This document shows positions 24,027 to 38,123 of a stretch of DNA of 39,779 bases, piece by piece. Below the pieces are notes generated by a model. It did no database searches and was not told where the DNA came from. It worked only from the letters and a program-made list of their open reading frames with translations. The position numbers and the translations under genes are program-made. Origin of the DNA: a virus; IMG/VR virus record IMGVR_UViG_3300047560_002121, positions 1 to 39,779 of that record; one strand, written 5' to 3'. Positions within the stretch are counted from its first letter, which is position 1; each line of letters begins with the position of its first letter.

Positions 24027-25124
24027 ATGTCAACCACTTTTTGCAAATACTTGACCAATCAGTACAGATTCGTATATGGGGTTCTTCAACCCTGCTGTTG
24101 GTACACTAAGACACAAGACCTTAACGCTAGCCCCGAAGAGATTGAAGCATACAAACAAGAGATGTATGCGATTGATGACTGGGTTCCTGAATGTAACTTC
24201 TGCAAGCATAGGGAGGATCAGGGTATGTACAGTCCTAGGCAGCAAGTTAACGCTACGTTTGAAGACGCAGAGCCCGGTGACGGAATCAGCTTAGAGTTTC
24301 AGATTGATAGAGAATGCAACGGTGGGTGCTTGATTTGCGGATCCTGGAACTCAACTACTTGGAGCCAATACGAAAAGAACACTACTAAGAAAGTCATTGA
24401 GATTAGAAATAACAATGACGATGTTGAGTTATGGCTACAGCAAGTATACAAGACAGTGACGTTGTACAAGGTTAAGCGCATCACGTTCCTCGGTGGAGAA
24501 CCCTTGAGAAGCGACACACATCTACGTTTGCTCAAAGAAATCGAAAAGGTTCGTGACCTTTCTGACATTCACTTGTGCTACATAACCAACGGAAGTGCTA
24601 GACCTAGCGAGGCTATGATTGACTTCTGGAAGCAATTCAAGCATGTGAACTTTAACTTAAGTATAGATGGCATCGGTGAGCACTTTAACTATCTACGTTG
24701 GCCACTGCAGTGGCATCAAGTTGAAGACAACCTTCGCTATCTAGTAGACTTAAAGGTTCCTACATTCAGTTTCACTGGTAGCTATACGCTCACCCCGTTT
24801 AGTGCATACTACCATGACAAATACGATGGTTGGGCTAGAGACTTCTTTCAAGGTACCGGTATAGATTATAGACTGATGTTCAACAAGCCGTATGATGCGA
24901 ACGGTGTGATGAGTTTGGCTGCTATTCCACCTATCATTCGTGCTCTAATGTTTAAGAAATATAAAGACTATCCTGCATACAACGGGCATACAGTGATGAA
25001 GTGCATCCCACCTCATGATCCCGAAGCATATAAAAAGTTCATGGAGTATATCGAATACCATGACCAACATAGAAAACTAAACTGGCGAGAAGTCTTCCCA
25101 GAGATACAACAATACTTTAAGTGA
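24027..25124 (+). CDS. Radical SAM protein, 365 aa
   Basis: CX3CX2C at Cys97, 101, 104 (CNGGCLIC) and FLGGEPL near 154-160. N-terminal CCW (23-25) and CNFC (56-59) may ligate an auxiliary iron-sulfur cluster. The C-terminal half has the NFNLSIDGIGEHFNYLRWP strand typical of phage twitch-type radical SAM proteins. Paralogous to the next gene, with 1 nt between them. Substrate unknown. Confidence 0.92.
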   Translation: MSTTFCKYLTNQYRFVYGVLQPCCWYTKTQDLNASPEEIEAYKQEMYAIDDWVPECNFCKHREDQGMYSPRQQVNATFEDAEPGDGISLEFQIDRECNGGCLICGSWNSTTWSQYEKNTTKKVIEIRNNNDDVELWLQQVYKTVTLYKVKRITFLGGEPLRSDTHLRLLKEIEKVRDLSDIHLCYITNGSARPSEAMIDFWKQFKHVNFNLSIDGIGEHFNYLRWPLQWHQVEDNLRYLVDLKVPTFSFTGSYTLTPFSAYYHDKYDGWARDFFQGTGIDYRLMFNKPYDANGVMSLAAIPPIIRALMFKKYKDYPAYNGHTVMKCIPPHDPEAYKKFMEYIEYHDQHRKLNWREVFPEIQQYFK

Positions 25125-25125
25125 T

Positions 25126-26295
25126 ATGGCTAATCAATTTTGCAGACAACTAAGCAACGGTTTCAAAATCAACGTGCAAGAAGATAAACTCTTATGGAGT
25201 CCATGCTGTTTCTATAGTAAGAAAACAGACATGAGTAATGTAGAAGAATATCAAAAGGCACGTGAGTATGCAAGTAGTGCCACTGGCTGGTTGCCTGAGT
25301 GCGAGAGTTGTAGAAAGATGGAAGAATCAGGTGTAGAGTTACTGCATCCTCGATTGAATGCTAACCACATGATTACTGCTGATAGTGTCGATGGCGACTG
25401 TGTTAACTTAGAGGTGAGCTTTGATACAAAGTGTAATGCAGCTTGTTTGAGTTGCGGTAGTTACTGTAGTACGACATGGGCTAAGTTTGACAAGAAGCAT
25501 GGACTCAATCAGCACATCAGTCCTAAGATTGTTAAGCTAGAAAATGTATTTCAACGTAAGCTGGCAGAGGTTCAGTACAAGGTTAAACTTGACGCAGAGG
25601 ACAGTGACCTAAGTGATATCTTGTTTAAGCAACTAATCAAAACTGTTCCACTAGATAAGTTACAAACTATCTTCATCATGGGCGGTGAACCCTTCTATAC
25701 AAAATCACATGTTAAGTTGTTGCGTCACTTGAAAGAGGTGCATCCTGACTTAAGCAAAGTCAGCATTCGTTATCAGAGTAACACTAGCATCTACCCCAGT
25801 GATGAAGTACTAGAGTTATGGAAAGATTACAACTACATTGTATACGGTGCTAGTATTGATGGTATCGGTGAACGCTTTAACTACTTGCGTTGGCCCTTGA
25901 AGTGGCATAGAAGTGAAGTAGTGTTGAAGCGATTAATAAATGAAACTAACGTGAAGTTGCACGTGAACTGCACCATTAGCCCGTTGAATGTCTTGTACGT
26001 TGATGAGTTAGAGAACTGGCTGATTGACAATATTGATAAATCTAGATTCTCTAGCCAACGTCAACTAGTAAGACCTAACGCTTGCTTGGGTGATATGGAT
26101 TTACGTTTTACTAACCAAAGACTCAGAGATAAAGTCTATACCAAATACGGTGAAGACCACAACATCAGTAAGTTGTTTAGCAACATGGAAATATATGACA
26201 ACCCCGGTAATATGTTCCGTTACATAGAGCATATGGATAAACTGCGCCGTTTAGATTGGCGCAAGACTTTCCCTGATGTAGTTGATTGTTATTAA
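25126..26295 (+). CDS. Radical SAM protein, 389 aa, paralogue of its neighbour
   Basis: CX3CX2C at Cys103, 107, 110 (CNAACLSC) and MGGEPF; N-terminal CC (27-28) and CESC (59-62) as in the 24027 protein, and the matching GASIDGIGERFNYLRWPLKW segment. A tandem duplication that has diverged. Overlaps the convergent 26292 gene by 4 nt. Confidence 0.92.
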   Translation: MANQFCRQLSNGFKINVQEDKLLWSPCCFYSKKTDMSNVEEYQKAREYASSATGWLPECESCRKMEESGVELLHPRLNANHMITADSVDGDCVNLEVSFDTKCNAACLSCGSYCSTTWAKFDKKHGLNQHISPKIVKLENVFQRKLAEVQYKVKLDAEDSDLSDILFKQLIKTVPLDKLQTIFIMGGEPFYTKSHVKLLRHLKEVHPDLSKVSIRYQSNTSIYPSDEVLELWKDYNYIVYGASIDGIGERFNYLRWPLKWHRSEVVLKRLINETNVKLHVNCTISPLNVLYVDELENWLIDNIDKSRFSSQRQLVRPNACLGDMDLRFTNQRLRDKVYTKYGEDHNISKLFSNMEIYDNPGNMFRYIEHMDKLRRLDWRKTFPDVVDCY

Positions 26296-36353: not shown

Positions 36354-37252
36354 GACTAGAGTATCAGGACGAACGCAAGAAAGATTGGTTCCTAGTAGCA
36401 TGGGACTTATCGGGTAAGTGTAACTATCGTTGCAGTTACTGCCCATCATTCTTACATGACGGAAAGAACGGTTGGCCTGATTACAATGACACAATAGCCT
36501 TCGTAGATAAGTTAGCTAGTCAACTACCCAACAAGCAAATATGCTATAGGTTCAGCGGGGGAGAGCCCACATACTGGAAACACTTTACTGACTTAATCAA
36601 ACACATTAAGAGTAAGGGACATTATGTTAGCTTTCTAACAAATGGATCCAGAGATATTGAGTATTTCAAACAAATCAATGAATATGTAGATGGTATGATT
36701 ATGTCATATCATCCAGAATACAGTAAGACAAATCATTTCATTGACATATCTAATACAATGACATGTCCTATAGCAGTCAATCTAATGCTGTTACCGGAAT
36801 CGTTTGATTCTACAATGGCTATAGCGGACGAACTATACAGTAACAGTAAGCTAGCTATCTGGCCTAAAGTGATTATGGACAAGACTAGCGAGATTATTAC
36901 TAACGAGATTGTAAGTTACACTGACGAACAATCAGCAATAATCAAGGACTGGAAGTATTTCCGTAAATTAGATGATAGTAAGATACATCGTGGGCAGTTA
37001 TTATTAGACGGCTCTGTTGTATCTGCTAATGACTTGATAATGAACGGGCTGAACAAGCACAAAGGATGGACCTGCTATAGTGGCGTTGACCAGATTAATG
37101 TATCTATAGAGGGCTTAGTATATAAAGCAGACTGTCAAGTGGGCGGGAGTATAGGATCTATACAGAACTTCACGCTTCCCACAGAGCCACAGACTTGTGA
37201 TAAGGACTATTGCACTTGTCTATCCGATATCTACATTAGAAAACATGATTAA
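36350..37252 (+). CDS. Radical SAM protein, 300 aa
   Basis: CX3CX2C at Cys24, 28, 31 (CNYRCSYC) followed by PS, and FSGGEPTYW near 68-76. C-terminal CQVGG and CDKDYCTCLSD may bind a second cluster. Third member of the CNYxCxYC set with 29819 and 32402. Confidence 0.93.
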   Translation: MRLEYQDERKKDWFLVAWDLSGKCNYRCSYCPSFLHDGKNGWPDYNDTIAFVDKLASQLPNKQICYRFSGGEPTYWKHFTDLIKHIKSKGHYVSFLTNGSRDIEYFKQINEYVDGMIMSYHPEYSKTNHFIDISNTMTCPIAVNLMLLPESFDSTMAIADELYSNSKLAIWPKVIMDKTSEIITNEIVSYTDEQSAIIKDWKYFRKLDDSKIHRGQLLLDGSVVSANDLIMNGLNKHKGWTCYSGVDQINVSIEGLVYKADCQVGGSIGSIQNFTLPTEPQTCDKDYCTCLSDIYIRKHD

Positions 37253-38123
37253 AGTAATATTAAGCAACGATGAGGCTAGTCGATACGTTTATTTTGACGT
37301 ATTCGATACTAACATCGCCCGTAAGTGGGAGCATGAGATTAAATTCGACTATACTATCTTCGAGAACGATAGATTCACGGGCTGGCCTGATAGTATTAGA
37401 ACTCCTAAATGGTATGCAACAGAATTAAACAAACTAATAGACATTATTAATGAATATCAGTTAGGAACTATCAATATGAAAGCACACGAGGCTATGGATA
37501 GTGACCATGCTAACAAACTACACAAGTATTTTGAGATATTACGGGGCGGAGTATTGACGCCGGCGCCATTCTTTACGAATAGTCCTGAGCATGTACAGCA
37601 AGCTATTCAAGACTTCAATATAATGATTCATGCATTTGAGAAGATGGCTTTCAGTCCTAGAAAAAGCCCTACAATCACTTGTACATTCCAATGTATGAGA
37701 ATGGATCTAGAGGATGAAGACTATGACCACTTCACATACGATTGGAAGTACGGTTATATGTATATTAACTACTGTGAGGTGGGGAAGCATTTACTAGAAA
37801 TGTTCATAGACAAGGACGATATCGTGGGTGATGATAACATCAGACCGTTAAAGTATTATAGCGCAGACTTTAAGATAAAGTTCGGACCCGATACTCCACC
37901 AGAACGCTTAGAACAATTCACTAATGAGTTCGAGACATGGTTTGACAGTAACAAAGACTATTTCGAATCTATCAATATACACAAAGACAAGTATAGAGCG
38001 TTGGGATTAATACCCGTAGCTAAGATTAATAGAGAAGCTAGCGGGTTTATTGGCTACACAGACCAAGATATTATAGAAGAATTATCACATTACAACAAAG
38101 TGATGGCTGTGAAGTCTATATGA
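37245..38123 (+). CDS. Hypothetical protein, 292 aa
   Basis: ATG at 37245 overlaps the previous gene's end. Not recognised. Aromatic and acidic (VYFDVFDTNIARKWEHEIKF near 15-34; HFTYDWKYGYMYINYCEVG in the middle). Contains LRGGVLTPAPFF. No catalytic signature seen. Ends convergently, overlapping the beta-propeller gene by 34 nt. Confidence 0.75.
   Translation: MIKVILSNDEASRYVYFDVFDTNIARKWEHEIKFDYTIFENDRFTGWPDSIRTPKWYATELNKLIDIINEYQLGTINMKAHEAMDSDHANKLHKYFEILRGGVLTPAPFFTNSPEHVQQAIQDFNIMIHAFEKMAFSPRKSPTITCTFQCMRMDLEDEDYDHFTYDWKYGYMYINYCEVGKHLLEMFIDKDDIVGDDNIRPLKYYSADFKIKFGPDTPPERLEQFTNEFETWFDSNKDYFESINIHKDKYRALGLIPVAKINREASGFIGYTDQDIIEELSHYNKVMAVKSI

Follow-up and report, generated by a model that had tools for sequence, protein, structure and literature searches.

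Phages that carry many radical S-adenosylmethionine (rSAM) genes have been noted since 2010, without a demonstrated function for those genes. The Campylobacter phages CP220 and CPt10 have an interchangeable module of five rSAM genes with an amidinotransferase (PMC2853527), the T4-like environmental genome TARA_ERS488813_N000010 has 12 rSAM genes and an A-type Fe-S carrier (PMC5332604), and the Aeromonas giant phage 332-Vera has eight rSAM genes in a structural cluster (PMC12390700). In pelagimyophages, rSAM and glycosyltransferase genes sit in the host-recognition cluster (PMC7029224). Here we describe a cassette of rSAM and partner genes at 24027-38123 of IMG/VR record IMGVR_UViG_3300047560_002121. 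The record was analysed over its complete length of 39,779 bases (the window); it is a phage fragment without the major capsid gene Gp23, and its source is an uncultured T4-like giant phage that carries this compact biosynthetic cassette. A core of three rSAM genes (rS3, rS5 and rS6), a gene for a methyltransferase-fold enzyme (MT) and often one for a tandem glycosyltransferase (GTA) is repeatedly found together as a block, both in many giant phages and on Bdellovibrionota chromosomes; another rSAM gene (rS7) and a 2-oxoglutarate (2OG) oxygenase gene (OG) are additions in many phage copies. Dozens of giant phages have these genes in an almost identical order, which, together with the reduced bacterial form, argues for an undescribed biosynthetic pathway common to both. 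Multi-rSAM phage modules are already known; the novelty lies in this particular syntenic module and in its cellular counterpart. The genes of the cassette, and an eighth rSAM gene outside it, are as follows.

24027..25124, plus strand: rS1, twitch-type rSAM protein (PF04055 44.9 bits; N_Twi_rSAM 190.8 bits)
25126..26295, plus strand: rS2, twitch-type rSAM protein with CX3CX2C present (PF04055 27.0 bits, cut-off 29.5; N_Twi_rSAM 164.2 bits, cut-off 170, E 4.9e-48; under both cut-offs)
28318..29838, plus strand: GTA, tandem GT-A glycosyltransferase with two DxD domains (PF00535 32.1 bits, cut-off 23.3; DGDN and DADA motifs)
29819..30790, plus strand: rS3, core rSAM protein (PF04055 38.5 bits; Bdellovibrionota homologues at 44-50% identity)
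30696..31445, plus strand: SGNH/GDSL-like hydrolase or acyltransferase (start more likely at about 30783, since the homologue in locus L017 starts later; DxxH block in the translation)
31436..32038, plus strand: MT, class I SAM-dependent methyltransferase fold (AlphaFold2 model)
32028..32432, plus strand: DUF2061 membrane protein (PF09834 54.2 bits, cut-off 23.1)
32402..33457, plus strand: rS4, accessory rSAM protein found in 27 of 101 loci (PF04055 51.7 bits)
33441..34412, plus strand: rS5, core rSAM/SPASM protein (PF04055 37.2 bits; SPASM 23.7 bits)
34399..35700, plus strand: rS6, core twitch/SPASM rSAM protein (N_Twi_rSAM 404.4 bits; SPASM 30.5 bits)
35697..36353, plus strand: OG, Asp/Asn-beta-hydroxylase-like 2OG-Fe(II) oxygenase (HxD...H; profile match to L-proline cis-4-hydroxylase, 3.6e-5)
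36350..37252, plus strand: rS7, core rSAM protein (PF04055 48.2 bits; nearest PDB sequence YydG, 1.2e-7)
37197..38123, plus strand: X, function unassigned (start more likely at about 37245; no Pfam or PHROG match; homologues in 4 loci)
14618..15781, minus strand: rS0, twitch-type rSAM protein inside a tRNA array (PF04055 41.4 bits; N_Twi_rSAM 268.9 bits)

CP220 resembles the source phage in being T4-related and in having an rSAM cluster with nucleotide-diphospho-sugar transferase domains directly downstream of baseplate genes; its rSAM proteins score up to 78 bits against the rS5 profile. It differs in having an amidinotransferase, and a search of 11 CP220 proteins found no homologue of MT or OG at E 0.01 and only marginal matches to rS3 and rS6. 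The Pelagibacter phage Mosig has homologues of an rSAM enzyme, of the Asp/Asn hydroxylase (OG, 33%) and of the methyltransferase (MT, 30%) between tail-fibre and baseplate genes, but its rSAM/2OG/aminotransferase cluster has another gene set and order and is without an rS3 match. By published counts, TARA_ERS488813_N000010 is like the largest relative contig (G001, 356 kb) in being T4-like, with many rSAM genes and its own Fe-S carrier. By description, 332-Vera is likewise a giant phage with many rSAM genes beside tail genes, but it belongs to the Chimallinviridae and is not T4-like. A literature search on phage rSAM enzymes with jumbo phage and glycosyltransferase, or on SPASM with 2-oxoglutarate, found nothing. 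When the window was compared with 50,697 cultured-phage records there was no match at the DNA level, and protein searches of the same records gave none for rS3, rS4 or GTA and only weak or distant ones for rS5, rS6, rS7, MT, OG and rS0. The sequence-only reading had held that a phage rarely devotes 14 kb to such chemistry; this was too strong, given the published modules and the at least 595 viral stretches that encode an MT relative.

The relatives of the cassette lie in 101 viral loci collected in two IMG/VR scans with rS6 and rS7 as baits; all window proteins were mapped onto these loci and all open reading frames (ORFs) clustered. The six-gene set rS3, MT, rS5, rS6, OG and rS7 occupies a single strand in 36 of the 36 non-redundant loci that have it in full, with a median span of 6.9 kb and only four gene orders, 23 of the loci having that of the window. 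Thus, the layout of the cassette is not due to chance. Typically one strand reads optional nucleotide-sugar dehydrogenase, GTA, rS3, MT, rS5, rS6, OG and rS7, and is often followed on the opposite strand by another rSAM gene, two kelch-like genes, a kinase-like gene, a further rSAM gene and then several Asp/Asn-hydroxylase-like oxygenase genes. Because rS6 and rS7 had been baits, co-occurrence was retested with MT as bait. At the thresholds used, the 27 MT-bait loci with enough flank contained rS3 in 26 cases, rS5 in 24, rS6 in 22, rS7 in 20, GTA in 6 and OG in 2; hence rS3, MT, rS5 and rS6 keep together most closely, and rS7, GTA and OG often join them. When GTA was the bait, only 9 of 33 loci had rS3, indicating that GTA belongs to a broader family.

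The conserved order and the MT-bait co-occurrence bear out the earlier proposal of a multi-step pathway encoded by genes that stay together. Scattered neighbours and independent phylogenies, which would have spoken against it, were mostly not found: besides the conserved order, distances in the gene trees correlate at 0.59-0.87 (p 0.001) over phages and bacteria. For phages alone the correlations are 0.11-0.61, and most pairs are weak, implying that individual genes have been swapped, in a partly mosaic fashion, while the layout persists. Given this weak congruence, strict co-inheritance within phages is not claimed.

When bacterial and archaeal genomes were scanned with the rS3 alignment, 44 loci came up. 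About 25 of these are relatives of full length, almost all with 44-50% identity and mostly from Bdellovibrionota metagenome-assembled genomes, plus a few marine ones assigned elsewhere; rS3 was found in 22 of 368 Bdellovibrionota genomes. Homologues of rS5, rS6, GTA and MT share the bacterial rS3 loci, and across 25 of these the widely recurrent partners are an rS6-type gene (21), an rS5-type gene (20), MT (10) and GTA (10), with no others. The bacterial operon, GTA-rS6-rS3-rS5(-MT), consists of adjacent chromosomal genes and thus has the same core enzymes as the phage cassette, from which it differs in standing alone on chromosomes; in two loci (L124 and L129) it forms a compact unit amid ordinary chromosomal genes, named from their sequences. 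Bacterial versions have a weak rS7 or none, few contain OG, and in several of them MT is longer at its N-terminus. Midpoint-rooted trees split rS3 into phage and bacterial groups (support 0.90 and 1.0) and make the phages monophyletic for rS5; the rS6 tree leaves the split unresolved. With separate rS3 groups and an rS5 phage clade, these trees show no recent transfer between phages and bacteria. No published description of this counterpart was found in a literature search. A PP-loop/Asn-synthase-like gene adjoins the Bdellovibrionota core in one locus (L117), and Elusimicrobia contigs (L144-L159) have tandem arrays of distant rS3/rS7-like rSAM genes, which are probably a different system.

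The T4-type major capsid protein Gp23 is encoded in 6 of the 14 relative records examined. In G001, eight of ten rSAM matches lie at 218-267 kb, most of them at 235-250 kb, and all eight Asp/Asn-hydroxylase-like (AspH-like) genes lie at 244-266 kb, with virion-type genes nearby; long phage records have 4-8 AspH-like genes each. An A-type Fe-S carrier is encoded by 7 of 16 records, in G001 at 205583-205885 and 298650-298955. Genes for UDP-glucose/GDP-mannose dehydrogenase (UDPGDH) stand immediately upstream of GTA in a subset of the viral loci (one protein cluster, 25 loci). Flanking proteins in phages (n=96) include 20 Asp/Asn-hydroxylase-like proteins, 19 rSAM proteins, 4 UDPGDH and 3 tryptophan halogenases; those in bacteria (n=114) include 29 rSAM proteins and 12 GT2 proteins, GTA homologues among them. 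The accessory genes of the relatives encode AMP-binding, DegT aminotransferase, PP-loop/Asn synthase, UDPGDH and tryptophan halogenase proteins. A flavin-dependent tryptophan halogenase gene lies near the cassette in phage contigs (for example L091:18990-20513, PF04820 278 bits; its cluster spans 16 loci), and so does a gene for translation initiation factor IF-1 (PF01176 E 7e-19) at L006:1167-1382 and L024:2148-2363, with similar ORFs in L011, L013 and L096.

The seven CX3CX2C proteins that the sequence-only reading had seen in the cassette, and the eighth at 14618, are indeed rSAM proteins. Each has one such motif (at 24027, 25126, 29819, 32402, 33441, 34399, 36350 and, on the minus strand, 14618), seven of the eight pass the Pfam Radical_SAM cut-off (PF04055), all but rS2, and a PF04055 scan of the whole record finds exactly these eight. 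Against N_Twi_rSAM (NF033640; curated cut-off 170 bits) there are four close matches, three of them over the cut-off, which is missed by rS2 (164.2 bits), rS5 (66.7), rS4 (31.3), rS3 (26.9) and rS7 (24.3). Alignments of rS3 and rS7 retain CX3CX2C and show further invariant cysteines in the C-terminal part, four in rS3 (263, 283, 304 and 309) and five in rS7. Sequence profiles of rS7, rS6 and rS5 give weak pointers to YydG, SkfB, NifB and BlsE. A viperin-like antiviral enzyme was considered and rejected, the best scores against prokaryotic viperin (NF038283) being 54.3 (rS4), 47.4 (rS7) and 39.2 bits (rS3) against a curated cut-off of 180.

The partners named earlier held up unequally. GTA and the DUF2061 protein exceed their family cut-offs. 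The family score, the DxD motifs and the predicted fold identify GTA as a GT2/GT-A glycosyltransferase: the nearest folds to its AlphaFold2 model (predicted local distance difference test score, pLDDT, 86.8) are chondroitin polymerase, heparosan and hyaluronan synthases, B4GALNT1 and the peptide S-glycosyltransferases SunS/ThuS, and the model also resembles LH3. The methyltransferase-like partner is modelled with confidence as a class I fold (pLDDT 95.8) and aligns with NodS (Z 17.6, 173 aligned residues, root-mean-square deviation 2.8), with many ties. Nicotianamine synthase ranks first for it by Foldseek (2.4e-11), ordinary methyltransferases close behind, but is absent from the 50-entry list by Z, which ordinary methyltransferases lead. 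The proposed 2OG oxygenase agrees with its L-proline cis-4-hydroxylase profile match and with a metal triad (H135, D137, H185) invariant across 15 sequences; its score against the Asp/Asn beta-hydroxylase family PF05118 is 14.9 bits, under the cut-off of 22.6. The SGNH assignment of 30696..31445 is weakly supported, PF00657 scoring 14.5 bits against a cut-off of 23.6 and the block I Asp position reading GCS.

The earlier view that the genes of 24027-38123 are coupled applies to the main plus-strand run at 28318-38123, where each of the 11 genes overlaps a neighbour; it fails for rS1 (24027) and rS2 (25126), which two minus-strand genes set apart. The overlaps, earlier put at 4-30 nt, are 4-95 nt by the listed starts; those of 95 and 56 nt are probably an artefact of start choice, and starts at about 30783 and 37245 would leave 8 nt. 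In G001 a 682 aa protein (locus L102, 217569-219617) has an N-terminus that is X-like by eye and an rSAM domain (PF04055 at 218208), an apparent fusion. The genes that separate or follow the cassette are these.

26292..26891, minus strand: 199 aa protein, family unassigned (no significant Pfam or PHROG match; C-terminus like the end of Sulfotransfer_2, by eye only)
26888..28291, minus strand: 467 aa protein, family unassigned (adjoins GT-A also in locus L017, at 79% identity; no significant Pfam or PHROG match, and none against solved structures in a sequence search)
38090..39250, minus strand: kelch-like beta-propeller protein (PF24681 21.5 bits, under cut-off; downstream neighbour kept in 59 of 101 loci)
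39240..39779, minus strand: second conserved neighbour, of a family of about 411 aa (cut by the contig end; 58 loci)

Directly upstream of the cassette lies a minus-strand array of 44 tRNA genes (ARAGORN; 7825-23083, about 15 kb) whose anticodons cover all 20 amino acids. Among the tRNA genes are a PP-loop ATPase-like gene (8582-9754; PF01171 18.7 bits, under cut-off) and a second 2OG-Fe(II) oxygenase gene (11873-12499; PF13759 60.3 bits). Virion-type genes occur in the window at 3-5 kb.

As to function, the tentative prediction, which may quite possibly be right, is that the cassette builds or tailors a cell-surface (envelope) glycoconjugate. The synteny in 36 of 36 loci, the MT-bait co-occurrence, the fold of GTA, the upstream sugar dehydrogenases, the GT2 flanks and the DUF2061 and SGNH-like genes suggest this, as do the bacterial core, the lack of a conserved precursor ORF, the host-recognition cluster of pelagimyophages, the position of the Mosig cluster and the Fe-S carrier in 7 of 16 records. 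Since the same core stands on bacterial chromosomes, a strictly virion-specific substrate is argued against. In such a pathway the enzymes would be loaded with Fe-S clusters during infection, for which some relatives encode their own A-type carrier, and would make or tailor a sugar-containing molecule of the envelope, with GTA transferring a nucleotide sugar. C-H chemistry (oxidation, epimerisation, deoxygenation or cross-linking) might follow, catalysed by the rSAM enzymes and the 2OG oxygenase, and methyl and acyl groups could be added or removed by MT and the SGNH-like protein. The changed surface would block superinfection or alter receptor recognition. Several observations weigh against this prediction. 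For several of the enzymes, the nearest relative of solved structure has a peptide or amino acid as substrate (YydG and SkfB in the case of the rSAM enzymes, L-proline hydroxylase in that of OG), and many Asp/Asn-beta-hydroxylase-like proteins and tryptophan halogenases are found among the neighbours. GTA is missing, at the threshold used, in 21 of the 27 MT-selected loci with enough flank, and may therefore not be a defining member of the core. The cassette has no recognisable lipid-carrier transferase, flippase or polymerase.

The main rival, possible if on balance unlikely, is that the target of the cassette is a peptide or protein (from the virion, from the host surface or an unlinked precursor peptide), which the rSAM enzymes would epimerise or cross-link, AspH-like enzymes hydroxylate, MT methylate and GTA glycosylate. 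The profile match of rS7 to the peptide epimerase YydG (1.2e-7), that of rS6 to SkfB and that of OG to L-proline hydroxylase, the SPASM domains, the 4-8 AspH-like genes per long phage record, the nearby tryptophan halogenases and the likeness of GTA to SunS/ThuS and LH3 all fit it. SPASM/twitch enzymes also act on sugars (BtrN), however, which counts against it, as does the lack of any other constant gene around the bacterial core. No small ORF that might encode a precursor peptide is conserved inside the phage or bacterial cassettes, although an unlinked precursor may exist; a cluster for a ribosomally synthesised and post-translationally modified peptide with an adjacent precursor was rejected on this ground. 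In light of the folds nearest to GTA, the flanking GT2 and UDPGDH genes and the absence of a conserved precursor ORF, a glycoconjugate is favoured over peptide or protein modification.

A free small molecule, such as an amino-acid- or sugar-derived metabolite acting on the host or on competing phages, is an improbable product: the AMP-binding, aminotransferase, PP-loop/Asn synthase, UDPGDH and halogenase genes of the relatives would suit its synthesis, but they are variable accessories outside the core, and no carrier protein or transporter was recognised. That unrelated auxiliary genes clustered by accident is very improbable; the phage-only gene trees, weakly correlated for most pairs (r 0.11-0.23), do indicate reshuffling, and GTA occurs without rS3 in many loci, but the order conserved in 36 of 36 loci and the recurrence of the core in Bdellovibrionota strongly disfavour it. 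Modification of the phage's own tRNAs by the rSAM enzymes, brought to mind by the place of rS0 within the array of 44 tRNA genes, is scarcely credible, as the listed tRNA-modification models (QueE, TYW1) score far under their cut-offs and no tRNA-modification partner is among the recurrent neighbours of the bacterial core.

A broader claim, and a more doubtful one than the envelope glycoconjugate itself, is that a pathway built on three dedicated rSAM enzymes and MT, usually with a glycosyltransferase, is common to Bdellovibrionota and T4-like giant phages, and that its product is a new class of radical-modified envelope glycoconjugate, with which the phages would remodel the infected cell. 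The syntenic core and its compact bacterial counterpart make the puzzle testable, for the bacterial operon, with its four or five genes, lends itself to expression or deletion apart from the phage. If the cassette does make a new glycan or peptide modification, this would mean new radical chemistry and an explanation for a gene set common to aquatic giant phages.

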